Source: Armatimonadota bacterium (GTDB lineage: Bacteria > Sysuimicrobiota > Sysuimicrobiia > Sysuimicrobiales > Sysuimicrobiaceae). Taken from it: a stretch of DNA of 64,000 nt. The notes under the pieces were generated by a model. That model was not told the DNA's origin. It ran no database searches and worked only from the letters and a program-made list of their open reading frames with translations. Every line of letters begins with the position of its first letter. Positions within the stretch are counted from its first letter, which is position 1. Of this stretch, positions 45,101-56,990 are shown in pieces. The stretch covers positions 1 to 64,000 of the forward strand of contig JANXBY010000057.1 of the NCBI GenBank assembly GCA_025060455.1. Direction: 5' to 3'. The translations under genes were made by a program, and so were the position numbers.

Positions 45101-46966
45101 TCACACCTCCTCCGGGGGCTGTACGGTGACCCGTCCTCCTTCCAACGACACGCGGTAGGTGCGCAAGGCCAGGGACGAGTCCGTCTGGCAGCGTCCCGTG
45201 CTCAGGCAGAAGCGGTACCCGTGGGCGGGACAGACCACATGACCGTCGTCCACGGACCCACCTGCCAAGGACGCGCCTCCGTGAGGGCAGGTGTCCTGCA
45301 CCGCGTACACGGTGCCGTTGTGCCGGAACACCGCCACCGCCTGGCCTGCCACGCGCACCACCCGCGCGCCTCCCTCCGGGAGGTCCGCCAGCGGGATCGT
45401 GGAGCCCTCTGAAGCGGGGACGTCCGGCTGCGGGGAGGCGGGCCGCAGGCGCGCGCGGAGTTCGTCGAAGTTCCCCCACCGCAGAAGGGCTTCCAGCACA
45501 GGGAGCAGGGCGTCGCACGGCACGTCCTCCAGCAGCTTCACCCCCACCACAGGGTTGGGGCCCGCGCGGCCGGCCACGTATACGTCCACCGCCTCTGCCA
45601 CCTCCGCGCCCCGGCGGACTTTCTTGCCCACCAGCCCCACGTCCGCCACGCCGTGGTTGCCGCAGCCCGCCGGGCAGCCGGACCAGTGGACAGCGAGCGG
45701 GCGGGTCACCCGGCCCTCCAGCGCCCGGGCCAATGCCAGCGCCCGTCGCTTGGTGTCGATGAGGGCCAGGTTGCAGTAGTCAGTACCCGTGCAGGTCACC
45801 AGGCCGCGCCACGCGGGGGGTGGGTCGGGCGGCAGGTCCCGCAGCAGGGGCTCCTGTAGGAGGGCGTGGAGCCGGTCTTCCGGCACGTGGGGAAGGATCA
45901 GGTTCTGCCCGGTGGTGAACCGCACCTCGCCTTCGCCGTACCCCTCGCTCAGGCGGGCGACCTCCATGAGCTGGTGGGCGTGCAGCCGGCCCACGGGCAC
46001 CCACAGCCCCACGGCATAGCGGCCGGCCTGCTTTTGCGGGACCACACCCAAGTGGTCACTGGACCCGGGCTGACGCGCGTCCCTGCCCGCCCGCGGTAGC
46101 GAGCGTCCCAACTGCTCCTCCACCGCGGCCCGGAGCCGCACCACGCCCCAGCTGTCCAGCAGGAAGCTCAAGCGCGCCTTGCTGCGGCTCTGCCGTGGCC
46201 CGTAGTCCCGGAACACCGCCACCACGGCCAGGCACACCTCCGGAGCCTCTTCGGGGGTGACGAAGGCGTCCAGGGGGACGGCGGGCCGGTAGCCACCCGA
46301 CCCCATCTTGCCGCCCACGAGCACGTTGAACCCCACCTCGTGCCGGCCTTCCACCTCGCGCACCGCGGGCACCAGGGCCAGGTCCTGGGTCTCCGCGTGG
46401 GTGCAGTTCTCCACGCAGCCGGTGATGGTCACGTTGAACTTCCGGGGCAGGTTGGTCACCGCCCGGTTGCCCACCACCCGCCGGGTCAGCGCGCGCACCA
46501 CCTCCGACGCGTCGAACAGCTCCGTGCGCACCACGCCGGCCAGCGGACAGCCGACCACGTTGCGCACGTTGTCCATGCCCGTCTGCAACGTGGTCAGCCC
46601 GACCCGCTGCAGCCGGGCCAGAAGCTCTGGGACGTCCTCGATCCGGATCCACCGGAGCTGGAGCTGCTGCCGGGTGGTCACGTCCAGCACGCCCCGTCCC
46701 AGCTCCTGGGAGATGGCGGCCAGCTCCCGTACCTGGGCCGCGCTGGCGATGCCGTTGGGGATGCGGACCCGGACCATGAAGAAGCCCGGCTGTCCCTCGC
46801 TCTGCCGCCGCAGGAAGATGCCCCACCACTTCAGGCGCTCCACGTCGTCCTTCGGGATCGCCGGCCACCCGGCTTCCGCGTAGCGCGACAGGTCGCCGAT
46901 CACGTCCAGGCCGTCGCGGACGGCCTTCAGGGCCTCGATGGCGTTCGCCGCACCGTTCCCGGTCAT
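45101..46966 (-). CDS. nirA: Ferredoxin-type nitrite reductase fused to a C-terminal Rieske (NirD-like) domain
   Basis: NVRNVVGCPLAGV, NLPRKFNVTITGCVENCTHAETQDLALVP, HWSGCPAGCGNHGVADVGLVGKK; Rieske CPHGGASLAGGSVDDGHVVCPAHGYRF. Confidence 0.9.
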   Translation of the reverse strand: MTGNGAANAIEALKAVRDGLDVIGDLSRYAEAGWPAIPKDDVERLKWWGIFLRRQSEGQPGFFMVRVRIPNGIASAAQVRELAAISQELGRGVLDVTTRQQLQLRWIRIEDVPELLARLQRVGLTTLQTGMDNVRNVVGCPLAGVVRTELFDASEVVRALTRRVVGNRAVTNLPRKFNVTITGCVENCTHAETQDLALVPAVREVEGRHEVGFNVLVGGKMGSGGYRPAVPLDAFVTPEEAPEVCLAVVAVFRDYGPRQSRSKARLSFLLDSWGVVRLRAAVEEQLGRSLPRAGRDARQPGSSDHLGVVPQKQAGRYAVGLWVPVGRLHAHQLMEVARLSEGYGEGEVRFTTGQNLILPHVPEDRLHALLQEPLLRDLPPDPPPAWRGLVTCTGTDYCNLALIDTKRRALALARALEGRVTRPLAVHWSGCPAGCGNHGVADVGLVGKKVRRGAEVAEAVDVYVAGRAGPNPVVGVKLLEDVPCDALLPVLEALLRWGNFDELRARLRPASPQPDVPASEGSTIPLADLPEGGARVVRVAGQAVAVFRHNGTVYAVQDTCPHGGASLAGGSVDDGHVVCPAHGYRFCLSTGRCQTDSSLALRTYRVSLEGGRVTVQPPEEV

Positions 46967-47112
46967 GGTCGCCTCCTGCTGCACGAGGTGTGGTTGGGAA
47001 CGACGGGGTTCGGGCGGCTTCAGGGCCGGAGAACGGGCGCCAGGACCCGGCGGGCACCCAGCTTGGGGAAAGCGGCCGCTAGGCCGGAGGAGACTTCGAG
47101 GTCTTTGGAAAA

Positions 47113-47763: not shown

Positions 47764-47793
47764 TTGACGCACGGGAGCAACGGTCGCTATATT
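47764..47793 (+). promoter_or_regulatory. Sigma-70-type promoter for the sulfate-assimilation operon: TTGACG-18-TATATT
   Basis: TTGACG 47764-47769, TATATT 47788-47793. Confidence 0.65.
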
Positions 47794-47815
47794 CGCAGCC
47801 AAAGGAACCGTGGCC

Positions 47816-47899
47816 ATGAAGCGACCCATCGTCCTTTCGGCTTCGGTGGTCCGCCCTCGGCAGTGCATCTGTCCTAGGCGGGAGGAATCCCGGGCCTAG
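47816..47899 (+). CDS. Candidate leader peptide MKRPIVLSASVVRPRQCICPRREESRA upstream of sat
   Basis: ATG preceded by AAAGGA at SD spacing; 27 aa; shares R-x-C-I-C-P-x-R with a second leader at 55938. Confidence 0.6.
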   Translation: MKRPIVLSASVVRPRQCICPRREESRA

Positions 47900-48006
47900 C
47901 AGGGCCGGGTTCCTTCCGCGGCTTCCGGTTTTCCCCTAGCCGTTCCAAGACGAACGTCGCGCCGCGTTGCGCAGGGGCGTGCGTGTGCGCGAGGAGGAGG
48001 TGTGGT

Positions 48007-49167
48007 GTGGTCGCACCCCACGGAGGCCAACTCGTGCAGCGGGTCGTCGAGGGTTCGCGGGCGGACTCCCTGCGGGCGGAGGCCAGCCGGCTGCCCGCGG
48101 TGACCCCGAGCCCGAAGGAGGCCGCCGACGTGGTGCTGGTGGCCAACGGCGCGTACAGCCCGCTCGTGGGCTTCATGGACCGCGAGACGTACCGGTCGGT
48201 CCTGCACACCCTCCACCTGCCGGACGGGCTGCCGTGGACGCTGCCCGTCACCCTCCCGGTGCCGGAGGAGTTGGCCCGCCGGCTGGGTGCAGCTAGCCGG
48301 CTGTCGGTACGGGCGCCGGGGCTGCTGGCGGTGGTGGAGGTCACGGAGGTGTACCGCCGCGAGCTGGAGGAGGAGGCGCTGGCGGTGTTCGGCACCACGG
48401 ATCCCACGCATCCGGGCGTGGCGCGGCTGCTGCGGGAGTCCCCCTGGACGGTGGCCGGGCCCCTGTGGTTGGTGGAGCGTCCCCGCGGTCCGTTTGCGGA
48501 CCGGGAGCTGGATCCCGTTCAGACCCGGGCGCACTTCGCGCAGGCGGGCTGGCGGACGGTCACCGCGTTCCAGACCCGCAACCCCGTCCACCGCGCCCAT
48601 GAGTACCTGCACAAGTGCGCCCTGGAAACCACGGACGGGCTGTTCCTGCACCCCCTGGTGGGGGAGACCAAGGACGACGACGTGCCCGCCGGGGTCCGCA
48701 TGCGCGCGTACGAGGTGCTGCTGGACCTGTACTACCCGAAGGACCGCGTCCTGCTGGCGGCGTTTCCCGCGGCCATGCGGTACGCGGGCCCGCGGGAGGC
48801 GGTGTTCCACGCCCTCGTGCGGAAGAACTACGGCTGCACCCACATCCTCATCGGCCGCGACCACGCAGGCGTCGGAGGCTTCTACGACCCGTACGCGGCT
48901 CACCGCATCTTCGATCGGTTCGACCCCGCCCGGCTGGGGATCACGCCGGTGTTCTTCGGGGAGGCGTTCTACTGCCGGCGGTGCGACGCCATGGCCACCG
49001 ACCGCAGCTGCCCGCACCCTACGGACGCCCGCGTGAATCCCAGCGGGACGTGGGTCCGGAGGCTGCTGCGTGCGGGCCAGCTGCCGCCGCCGCAGGTGAT
49101 GCGCCCGGAGGTGGCGCAGGTGCTGCGGGAGTACTACACGCAGCCGGTGGCCGAGCAGGCGGGCTAG
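48007..49167 (+). CDS. sat: ATP sulfurylase (sulfate adenylyltransferase)
   Basis: ANGAYSPLVGFMDRETY, TAFQTRNPVHRAHEYLHKCALE, LIGRDHAGVGGFYDPYAAH, FGEAFYCRRCDAMATDRSCPH. Confidence 0.95.
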   Translation: MVAPHGGQLVQRVVEGSRADSLRAEASRLPAVTPSPKEAADVVLVANGAYSPLVGFMDRETYRSVLHTLHLPDGLPWTLPVTLPVPEELARRLGAASRLSVRAPGLLAVVEVTEVYRRELEEEALAVFGTTDPTHPGVARLLRESPWTVAGPLWLVERPRGPFADRELDPVQTRAHFAQAGWRTVTAFQTRNPVHRAHEYLHKCALETTDGLFLHPLVGETKDDDVPAGVRMRAYEVLLDLYYPKDRVLLAAFPAAMRYAGPREAVFHALVRKNYGCTHILIGRDHAGVGGFYDPYAAHRIFDRFDPARLGITPVFFGEAFYCRRCDAMATDRSCPHPTDARVNPSGTWVRRLLRAGQLPPPQVMRPEVAQVLREYYTQPVAEQAG

Positions 49168-49182
49168 GAAGGGGGAGACGGG

Positions 49183-51108
49183 ATGGCACAGGTTCAGACC
49201 GGGCCGCAGGTCACGTGGGAGCTCGTGCTCAAGCGCAACTCCATCGAACGGCTCAAGCGGGAGAAGTTCCCCTTGGACATCGTGGACGAACTGCCAGACC
49301 TCATCGCGCGGGGCTACGAGGCCATCCCAGAGGAGGACATCGTGCGCCTCAACTGGTGGGGCCTCACCCACGACAAGCCGAAGGTGGGGACCTTCATGGT
49401 GCGCATCAAGGTCCCCGGGGGAAGGGTGCGGCCCGCGCAGCTGGTGGCTTTGGGGCAGGTCGCCCGCCGCTACGGCCGCAACTACGGAGAGCTCACCACC
49501 CGACAGGGCATCCAGCTGCACTGGGTGCGGCTGGAACAACTGCCGGAAGTCCTCTCCGCGGTACAGGCAACGGGGCTGACCACCGTGGGCGGGGAAGGCG
49601 ACACGGTCCGCAACGTGACCAGCTGCCCCGTGGCAGGGGTGGACCGCCAGGAGCTGTTTGACGTGCGCCCCGTGGTGGAGGCGGTGGCGCGGTTCTTCTA
49701 CGGCCACCGGGACTACAGCAACCTGCCCCGCAAGCACAAGTACACCATCAGCGCCTGCCCCGCCCAGTGCAACGCGCCGGAGATCCACGACGTGGCGTTG
49801 GTGGGCGTGCTGAAGGACGGCCGGCCGGGGTTCGCGGTGCGGGTGGGCGGAGGGCTATCGGCCACACCGCGGATCAGCCGGGACCTGGGGGTGTTCGTGC
49901 CCGCAGATCCTCCACACGGAGTGGTGGAGGTGCTGCGGGCCATCACCGACACCTGGCAGAACGACCTGCGGTACCGCCTGAGCCGCGCCAAGGCCCGGAT
50001 CAAGTTCATGGTGGACGACTACGGGCCGGAGGCGGTGCGGGCGATGGTGGAGGCCCGGCTGGGCTATCGCCTGGAGGACGGTCGCGCACCGGCGCCCACC
50101 CACGACACGGACCACCTGGGCGTGCACCCGCAGAAGCAACCGGGGTTGGTGTACGTGGGCGTTCCGGTGCCCATGGGGTGGATCACCGGAGATCAGCTGG
50201 TGGCCCTGGGCGAGCTGGTGGGCTCCTTCGGGGGAGAAGTGCGCTTCACCCGCACGCAGAACCTCATCGTCACCGACGTCCCGGAGGACCGGCTGCACTC
50301 CGTGGTGCGGGAGCTGGCGGCGGTCGGCCTCGACCCGAGCCGCAACCCCGTCTACGGTCGGTCGGTGGCGTGCACCGACCACCGCTTCTGCAACTACTCG
50401 GTGGCGGAGACCAAGGGCAAGCTCAAGGAGATCCTGGAGGAGCTGGAACGGCGGTTCGGGCGGGAGGTGGCGGATCTGCGCATCTACACCGACGGCTGCC
50501 CGCACGCGTGCGCCCACCACTGGGTCGGGGACATCGGCCTGCAGGGCACCACCACCCTGCACCCGGGGCGGGGCGTGCGGGTGGAGGCCTACGACGTGTG
50601 CCTGCGCGGCGGGCTCGGAACGCGGGCCGCCATCGGAAAGCCCCTGATCCGGCGCGTGCCGGAGGACCGGATCGTGGAGGTGGTGTGCCGGCTGCTGGAG
50701 GGGTGGCTGCGGGAGCGCCGGACGCGCGGGACGGGATTCGCCTTCCGGGACTTCGTGGACGCGCACACGGACGACCAGCTACAGGCCCTGGCGCTCGGAG
50801 AAGGGGCAGGGGACGAGGCCGCGCCGCGGCGGCCGGTGGTGCGCGTGCCCGGCATGCTCCTGCCCTACAGCGAGGGCGCCGACCGGTTGGAGGTGGACGC
50901 CCGCACCGTGCGGGAAGCCTTGGAGGTCCTGCGGGCCCGCTACCCGCAGCTGGTGGCGCAGGTCCTCACGCCCGACGGGCAGGTCCACCCGAGCGTCAAC
51001 CTGTTCGTGGGCGAGGAGGACGTGCGGGGACTGGGAGGGCTGGACGCGCCCCTGCGTCCGGGCGAGGAGCTCACTATCCTCCCCGCCCTGGCGGGCGGTG
51101 GTGCGTGA
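49183..51108 (+). CDS. Ferredoxin-type sulfite reductase with C-terminal ThiS/MoaD/CysO-like sulfur-carrier domain
   Basis: NVTSCPVAGVDRQELFDVRP, NLPRKHKYTISACPAQCNAPEIHDVALV, IYTDGCPHACAHHWVGDIGLQG; C-terminus VRVPGMLLPYSEGADRLEVDARTVREALEVL...VNLFVGEEDVRGLGGLDAPLRPGEELTILPALAGGGA. Confidence 0.9.
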   Translation: MAQVQTGPQVTWELVLKRNSIERLKREKFPLDIVDELPDLIARGYEAIPEEDIVRLNWWGLTHDKPKVGTFMVRIKVPGGRVRPAQLVALGQVARRYGRNYGELTTRQGIQLHWVRLEQLPEVLSAVQATGLTTVGGEGDTVRNVTSCPVAGVDRQELFDVRPVVEAVARFFYGHRDYSNLPRKHKYTISACPAQCNAPEIHDVALVGVLKDGRPGFAVRVGGGLSATPRISRDLGVFVPADPPHGVVEVLRAITDTWQNDLRYRLSRAKARIKFMVDDYGPEAVRAMVEARLGYRLEDGRAPAPTHDTDHLGVHPQKQPGLVYVGVPVPMGWITGDQLVALGELVGSFGGEVRFTRTQNLIVTDVPEDRLHSVVRELAAVGLDPSRNPVYGRSVACTDHRFCNYSVAETKGKLKEILEELERRFGREVADLRIYTDGCPHACAHHWVGDIGLQGTTTLHPGRGVRVEAYDVCLRGGLGTRAAIGKPLIRRVPEDRIVEVVCRLLEGWLRERRTRGTGFAFRDFVDAHTDDQLQALALGEGAGDEAAPRRPVVRVPGMLLPYSEGADRLEVDARTVREALEVLRARYPQLVAQVLTPDGQVHPSVNLFVGEEDVRGLGGLDAPLRPGEELTILPALAGGGA

Positions 51109-55899: not shown

Positions 55900-55928
55900 T
55901 TGACACCCCGGAACGGCGGTGCTAAAAG
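55900..55928 (+). promoter_or_regulatory. Sigma-70-type promoter for the sulfurtransferase unit: TTGACA-17-TAAAAG
   Basis: TTGACA 55900-55905, 17-nt spacer, TAAAAG 55923-55928. Confidence 0.7.
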
Positions 55929-55937
55929 AGACGGAGC

Positions 55938-56018
55938 ATGAAGTGGCAACGTTACGCACCGCGCAGCTGCATCTGTCCGTGGCGGAGGCGGGGTCTGCCT
56001 TCGCTGCGCCCCTTGTAA
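55938..56018 (+). CDS. Candidate leader peptide MKWQRYAPRSCICPWRRRGLPSLRPL upstream of the sulfurtransferase
   Basis: 26 aa; begins just after the promoter; shares CICP-x-R with the sat leader; followed by an intrinsic terminator. Confidence 0.65.
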   Translation: MKWQRYAPRSCICPWRRRGLPSLRPL

Positions 56019-56054
56019 GCACCCGCGAAGCCAACCCTGTCTCCGCTGAGCCGT

Positions 56055-56078
56055 GCCCAGGTCGGCACCTGGGCTTTT
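56055..56078 (+). terminator. Intrinsic terminator/attenuator between leader peptide and sulfurtransferase
   Basis: GCCCAGGT-CGGC-ACCTGGGC followed by TTTTCTGT; lies between promoter and gene. Confidence 0.85.
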
Positions 56079-56126
56079 CTGTCTCTCAAGCTTTCAAAGG
56101 TCCGTGCGCCCGAGGAGGTGACAGGA

Positions 56127-56986
<860 letters not shown>

Positions 56987-56990
<4 letters not shown>

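Follow-up and report, generated by a model that had tools for sequence, protein, structure and literature searches.

Putative cysteine-responsive leader-peptide attenuators upstream of sulfur genes across the phylum Sysuimicrobiota

Cysteine attenuators of mycobacteria were first predicted by Seliverstov et al. 2005 (PMC1262725); in their leaders, Cys codons follow one another in runs close to the stop codon, and a conserved hairpin was not found by those authors. Leaderless short ORFs of mycobacteria that encode poly-Cys peptides respond to cysteine, as the work of Canestrari et al. 2020 is cited in PMC9094748 and PMC13236596. In Streptomyces lividans, the metL leader MSTTSDRTPATEATTTPGARCMCRRMCAF has been described as methionine-dependent (PMC8079986). 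This leader (..GARCMCRRMCAF) has Cys-Met-Cys-Arg-Arg-Met-Cys upstream of metNIQ, and cysteine may be its signal as much as methionine.

The window (the whole stretch of 64,000 nucleotides that was analysed) contains two short Cys-containing leader ORFs, both of which sit within one sulfur-assimilation locus. The initial annotation had pointed out a 27-codon ORF with the Shine-Dalgarno (SD) sequence AAAGGA between a promoter and sat, and a second short ORF upstream of a rhodanese gene (55938-56018). Both are present in the sequence, and the 11-mer that it described as common to the two leaders is TGCATCTGTCC. No match was found in Rfam within the window at the gathering threshold or among NCBIfam models for either window leader peptide at E<=10, and the searched paper on the phylum mentions neither leader peptides nor attenuation. 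The features are as follows (R1 is the leader profile described below).

47764-47793, + strand, sigma-70-type promoter of the sat leader, TTGACG-18-TATATT (promoter scan)
47801-47806, + strand, SD of the sat leader ORF, AAAGGA (read in the sequence)
47816-47899, + strand, sat leader ORF, MKRPIVLSASVVRPRQCICPRREESRA and stop, ATG to TAG, 27 codons (R1, E 2e-8; training-set member)
47864-47872, + strand, Cys1-Ile-Cys2 codons of the sat leader, TGC ATC TGT
47878-47890, + strand, segment 1 of the sat leader, the 5' arm of the helix, GCGGGAGGAATCC, beginning 5 nt past Cys2
47907-47919, + strand, segment 4 of the sat leader, the 3' arm, GGGTTCCTTCCGC
48007-49167, + strand, sat, ATP sulfurylase, gene 1 of the operon, start re-assigned to GTG (HMM)
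55900-55928, + strand, probable promoter of the rhodanese leader, TTGACA-17-TAAAAG, with a weak -10 (by eye; uncalled in the scan)
55938-56018, + strand, rhodanese (sulfurtransferase) leader ORF, MKWQRYAPRSCICPWRRRGLPSLRPL and stop (R1, E 7e-8; training-set member)
55968-55976, + strand, Cys1-Ile-Cys2 codons of the rhodanese leader, TGC ATC TGT
55980-55994, + strand, segment 1 of the rhodanese leader, TGGCGGAGGCGGGGT
55997-56004, + strand, segment 2 of the rhodanese leader, GCCTTCGC, the proximal alternative partner of segment 1
56034-56048, + strand, segment 4 of the rhodanese leader, ACCCTGTCTCCGCTG, the distal partner of segment 1, 15 bp
56055-56084, + strand, intrinsic-terminator-like hairpin GCCCAGGTCGGCACCTGGGC TTTTCTGTCT, between the rhodanese leader (past segment 4) and the gene start (terminator scan)
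56127-56990, + strand, two-domain rhodanese, 3-mercaptopyruvate/thiosulfate sulfurtransferase type (HMM)

The stem-loop that had been reported beside the sat leader was found (47878-47890/47907-47919), with an inner CCCGGGCC/GGGCCGGG-type stem adding to it; the stop codon, which had been placed at its base, lies in the loop instead (TAG, 47897-47899). A U-tract directly after this hairpin had also been supposed, but TTTT (47929-47932) lies some 10 nt beyond the stem, where the scan called no canonical terminator. The strong terminator-like hairpin at 56055-56084 had no evident counterpart among the aligned relatives. Between sat and the rhodanese gene lie genes that, from a reading of their ORF translations only, appear to be sulfite/nitrite-reductase-like, PAPS-reductase-like, APS-kinase-like and siroheme-synthesis-like, together with one for a TSUP-like transporter. 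A second sulfite/nitrite-reductase-like gene (45101-46984, minus strand; translation read) is divergent and upstream of the sat operon, and the C-terminal stretch of its product resembles a Rieske ferredoxin domain (translation read). Elsewhere in the phylum, the assimilatory NirA/sulfite-reductase-like protein of locus L058 (1073-2899) has a C-terminal ThiS/MoaD-like sulfur-carrier domain by HMM, which is an unusual fusion of a reductase and a sulfur-carrier domain in one protein; the window protein at 49183-51108 is close to it in length and appears alike.

To compare the leaders, we used the profile R1, which was built from sequence only with 59 leaders in a gapless alignment (A1) and covers a core of 38 nt. 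In the phylum Sysuimicrobiota (CSP1-3), R1 matched 90 loci at E<1e-3 in 37 of 43 genomes, the remaining six having no clear leader copy; 31 of the 90 matches were outside the training set. Among 350 genomes of other phyla, no match reached E<1e-3 and the best had E=0.002. Conservation of the CICP core in relatives, the check that had been set in advance, was thus borne out, and the leader family is phylum-wide. We consider it likely that these leaders are cysteine-responsive, ribosome-mediated attenuators of a phylum-wide sulfur regulon. Comparative sequence data point to this reading through the ORF with its translation-type conservation, an invariant TGT at the second Cys codon (Cys-2), a covarying helix at a fixed spacing from it, the promoters, the association with sulfur genes and the restriction to the phylum. 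The suggestion of the initial annotation that the sat leader is a Cys-codon attenuator with a new core motif therefore gains support from the coding-type conservation, the hairpin geometry and the genes downstream, with stalling as its predicted step.

Across 86 leaders, the consensus is [Y/F]-x-P-R-[Q/E]-C-I-C-[P/L]. Upstream of the core, the core frame contained no stop codon in 853 codons, while the other frames contained 28 and 5, and in the Pro, Arg, Gln/Glu and Cys-1 codons positions 1 and 2 are fixed and the third varies. The stop-free core frame, this 2-1 codon pattern and the synonymous variation suggest that the core is translated. The two Cys codons differ in their constraint: Cys-2 is TGT in 86 of 86 leaders, and Cys-1 is TGC in 66, TGT in 19 and GGT in one (L256), which therefore has Gly at Cys-1 and a single Cys codon in the core. 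In the ordinary genes sampled, TGT makes up about 8-11% of Cys codons (14 of 183 in genes that follow the leaders, 7 of 65 in window genes). The core had no RNA partner when compared with shuffled controls (z=1.8 and 0.9), so that pairing with the flanking RNA was rejected as an explanation of its invariance.

These features also bear on a different signal, namely arrest of the ribosome by the P-R-x-Cys-Ile-Cys peptide itself, which would respond to cysteine or to the sulfur/redox state, with the same RNA logic but without codon hunger. The Pro-Arg before the cysteines and the Ile between them are conserved as amino acids with free third positions, Cys-Ile-Cys is kept in 85 of 86 leaders whatever the neighbouring residues, and the core is without an RNA partner. 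Two Cys codons (one in L256) are also few for a codon-counting sensor, which would need neither the invariant Ile nor the flanking P-R, and both points speak against the attenuator reading. Also weighing against it are the six genomes without a clear leader copy, the targets tied to sulfur only indirectly, the missing U-tract after the helix, and an SD exposure that shows no consistent switch on folding. However, the Arg before the core and the Pro after it are replaceable across leaders (by V, I, C, L, N or F and by L, R or M, respectively), L256 has dispensed with Cys at the first position, and the invariant choice of a synonymous TGT at Cys-2 points to decoding and not to the residue alone. 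We therefore regard arrest by the nascent peptide as unlikely.

Segment 1 follows immediately 3' of the core and takes the forms GCGGAGG, GCGGGGG, GCGAAGG and others. Its complementary partner was strongly enriched downstream (z=21.6 against shuffled controls) and not upstream (z=0.4). In the rhodanese and DUF4395 leaders, aligned with MAFFT without regard to pairing, the helix between segments 1 and 4 (1:4) had 96.2% of cells paired, as compared with 42-57% when the arms were slid, and showed 18 two-sided changes against 5.6 in shuffles (reached in 0 of 500). The proximal helix with GCCTTCGC (1:2) was paired in 97.9% and is near-invariant, with little covariation. Both helices are conserved in the rhodanese and DUF4395 leaders, and the other leader classes have one helix. 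In a free search, the best helix began at index 17-20 in 64 of 85 leaders, on a numbering that puts Cys-2 at index 12-14; in most leaders the helix begins 3-5 nt past the Cys-2 codon. Segment 1 is kept as RNA even when it is shifted by 1 nt against the reading frame (CICPRAK, CICPRGG, CICLCGG). In L252, L253 and L259, an unrelated sequence has taken the place of segment 1 altogether and yet pairs at the same position. The stop codon of the leader is usually in the 5' arm or the loop of the helix and otherwise after it.

In the mechanism that we propose, a dedicated promoter would drive a very short ORF ending in P-R-[Q/E]-Cys-Ile-Cys(UGU)-[P/L]. When Cys-tRNA is plentiful, the ribosome would reach the stop codon and leave, segment 1 would pair with segment 4, and expression of the sulfur gene would be low. 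When Cys-tRNA is scarce, the ribosome would wait with Cys-2 in the A site and its leading edge over the first bases of segment 1, and by blocking the helix it would allow the sulfur gene to be expressed. In the longer leaders (rhodanese and DUF4395), pairing of segment 2 with segment 1 would exclude 1:4, as do the alternative arms of the trp type. The footprint of a ribosome extends about 12 nt downstream from the first base of its A-site codon. With Cys-2 in the A site, its edge would lie at about index 24 and mask the helix start; with Cys-1 there, the edge would lie at about index 18 and leave the helix free. This geometry would fit the strict retention of Cys-2, the looser retention of Cys-1 (Gly in L256) and the fixed spacing. 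We infer the stall at Cys-2 and the off-step, and we draw the on-when-cysteine-is-short direction from the targets.

How the helix would lower expression was considered from the sequence that follows it, which is a pyrimidine tract consisting mainly of C (C-rich at positions 2-6). No U-tract was found after the helix across the leaders, although canonical U-tract terminators are present elsewhere in this genome, which argues that 1:4 is not an ordinary intrinsic terminator. An intrinsic terminator was rejected on this ground and because the sole clear terminator-like hairpin (56055-56074) is unconserved in relatives.

Control by SD occlusion has been proposed for some leader attenuators of high-GC bacteria. 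Applied here, the helix would hide or free the SD of the downstream gene, with the CCUCC of segment 4 acting as an anti-Shine-Dalgarno-like element; in fact, CCUCC or CUCC of segment 4 can pair with GGAGG of segment 1 or of the gene, and the missing U-tract would be accounted for. When 55 leaders were folded with the ribosome at Cys-1, at Cys-2 or at the stop codon, however, exposure of the gene's SD did not change consistently: its predicted mean over the 55 loci was 0.26 in the free RNA, 0.23 for a stall at Cys-2 and 0.27 for a ribosome at the stop, with no common direction among the loci, and an SD sequestration switch was rejected on this basis. Moreover, freeing segment 4 would cause repression in starvation, opposite to the direction that sat and sulfonate uptake call for. 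We thus hold SD occlusion to be quite unlikely. Because the tract is C-rich and not a U-tract, Rho is encoded in this genome and SD exposure does not switch, we favour an off-step in which Rho, or the hairpin itself, would assist termination.

The genes downstream were assigned for the 83 leaders that have downstream sequence. The targets are rhodanese (20), RimK-like ATP-grasp ligase (11), DUF4395 (10), ThiF/MoeB-rhodanese (7), TusA (7), ATP sulfurylase (6), sulfonate/taurine binding protein (6), sulfite/nitrite reductase (5), OsmC (4), cystathionine synthase (2), YeeE/Sulf_transp (2), SBP_bac_5 (1), SBP56 (1) and one unclear case. At least 12 different gene families are found downstream, almost all of them sulfur-related, with only an indirect relation to sulfur for the ATP-grasp, DUF4395 and SBP_bac_5 targets. 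Note that the ATP-grasp ligase is the second commonest target (L017, L035, L085, L088, L092, L239, L247, L249, L250, L255 and L257); given this link to the cysteine regulon, the ligase may function in making thiols or cysteinyl peptides. Promoters of the TTGACA-17-TAnnnT type are found upstream of many leaders. In about 34 of the 83, the leader start lies 6-13 nt after the TAnnnT -10 box, a distance suggesting that these leaders are translated in a leaderless or near-leaderless manner; the others have an SD.

The position of the element just downstream of promoters, and the invariance of ATCTGTC as nucleotides apart from single exceptions, might also be expected if the conserved 38-mer were a DNA or RNA site for a binding protein and the ORF incidental. 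We find this very improbable, since only the core frame is free of stops and combines 2-1 codon conservation with synonymous variation, as a translated sequence does, in-frame starts adjoin the promoters, and covariation in the helix 3' of the core marks it as an RNA structure.

In the genome of the window (2.26 Mb), the pattern CICPxR had six matches as compared with none for the reversed pattern. Five are leaders (short ORFs), and the sixth (L005) is antisense inside an acetolactate-synthase-like gene. Four of the leaders precede sat, the rhodanese gene, a ThiF/MoeB-rhodanese fusion and a gene for a TusA protein, and the fifth is at a rearranged contig end. This last one (L002, G000:C6:1-2045) is an orphan leader, ..FAPRQCICPGRGRGCGARHTGLRVA, at 529-551 on the minus strand, which adjoins the contig end and is also beside a truncated DoxX-like frame in reverse orientation. 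The locus looks like a rearrangement or an assembly break; in HRbin32 (L042), a leader closely resembling it precedes a sulfonate-binding protein.

A gene-first search recovered core variants such as CICL unprompted. It found the sat leader in all six sat-bearing genomes of the window's family (f1) and leaders at many rhodanese genes. Leaders at sat were seen only in this family, while sat genes in other families were found without one, and an ancestral control of sat was therefore rejected. In an exact DNA pattern scan of 85,488 GTDB genomes, the matches outside the phylum were mostly in or antisense to long ORFs or had no leader context; together with the search of 350 genomes by R1, this led us to reject a spread of the leader outside the phylum. 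That the two window ORFs are alike by chance can be dismissed: short patterns do recur, as the chance match L005 and the single CICPxR matches of other phyla (mostly inside or antisense to long ORFs) illustrate, but 90 profile matches restricted to a single phylum, and lying upstream of sulfur genes, refute it.

Returning to the cysteine-responsive attenuator, we tentatively put forward, as a possibility, a more specific form of it. Cys-Ile-Cys(UGU) may be a dedicated stalling module in which the peptide context and the wobble-decoded UGU favour a stall at Cys-2; the sulfur regulon of a whole phylum (a dozen families, at most five loci per genome) might then be under one translation-based sensor, with a mechanical hairpin-occlusion switch that could do without a U-tract terminator or a protein regulator. 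The leader provides a predicted sulfur regulatory code for an uncultured, globally distributed phylum and marks the genes of its cysteine regulon, including DUF4395, the ATP-grasp ligase and OsmC, the roles of which are unclear. Cysteine attenuation thus probably exists outside Actinobacteria, with a clear and testable geometry of ribosome and hairpin. That UGU is invariant at one of the two Cys codons offers an unusually clean example from nature of selection on a synonymous codon, and it would allow codon hunger to be separated from peptide-mediated arrest.

Among the known systems, S-box/SAM and other sulfur riboswitches and T-boxes likewise control sulfur genes by cis-acting RNA, but the sensor here is a translated ORF. 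The general features of ribosome-mediated attenuators were found: a short leader ORF with codons of the end product, which conservation suggests to be translated; a covarying helix, in most leaders 3-5 nt past Cys-2, that a stalled ribosome could block; and downstream genes that make or acquire cysteine (Sat, SiR, sulfonate uptake, cystathionine synthase and sulfurtransferases). As in attenuators of the trp/his type, there is a leader peptide with regulatory codons, the two helices of the rhodanese and DUF4395 leaders may be mutually exclusive, and the stop codon lies inside the switching region. These leaders differ from that type in having only two regulatory codons and no U-tract of an intrinsic terminator (the GC hairpin of the trp type is directly followed by a U-tract, whereas a mainly-C pyrimidine tract was found here), and it seems to be the 5' arm of the terminal helix on which the ribosome acts directly. 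The S. lividans metL leader, as described in PMC8079986, is a leaderless short ORF, as many of the present leaders may be, and resembles them in having R-C-x-C-x-R upstream of an uptake operon for sulfur amino acids and hairpins that lack a U-tract; it has Cys-Met-Cys, as compared with Cys-Ile-Cys here, and comes from a different phylum.

The mycobacterial attenuators also have a short Cys-containing ORF upstream of sulfur/cysteine genes, which here too may often be leaderless or nearly so, no obvious U-tract terminator, and a presumed stalling of the ribosome at Cys codons. In contrast to them, the leaders of Sysuimicrobiota, an unrelated phylum, are without the defining run of consecutive Cys codons and have Cys-Ile-Cys in 85 of 86 cases, with an invariant UGU, a conserved P-R-x-C-I-C-P peptide, a helix that covaries and keeps its spacing, and a regulon of a dozen families. 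On the best reading of these sequences, the Sysuimicrobiota leader would work like the mycobacterial attenuators but is not a member of them by sequence.
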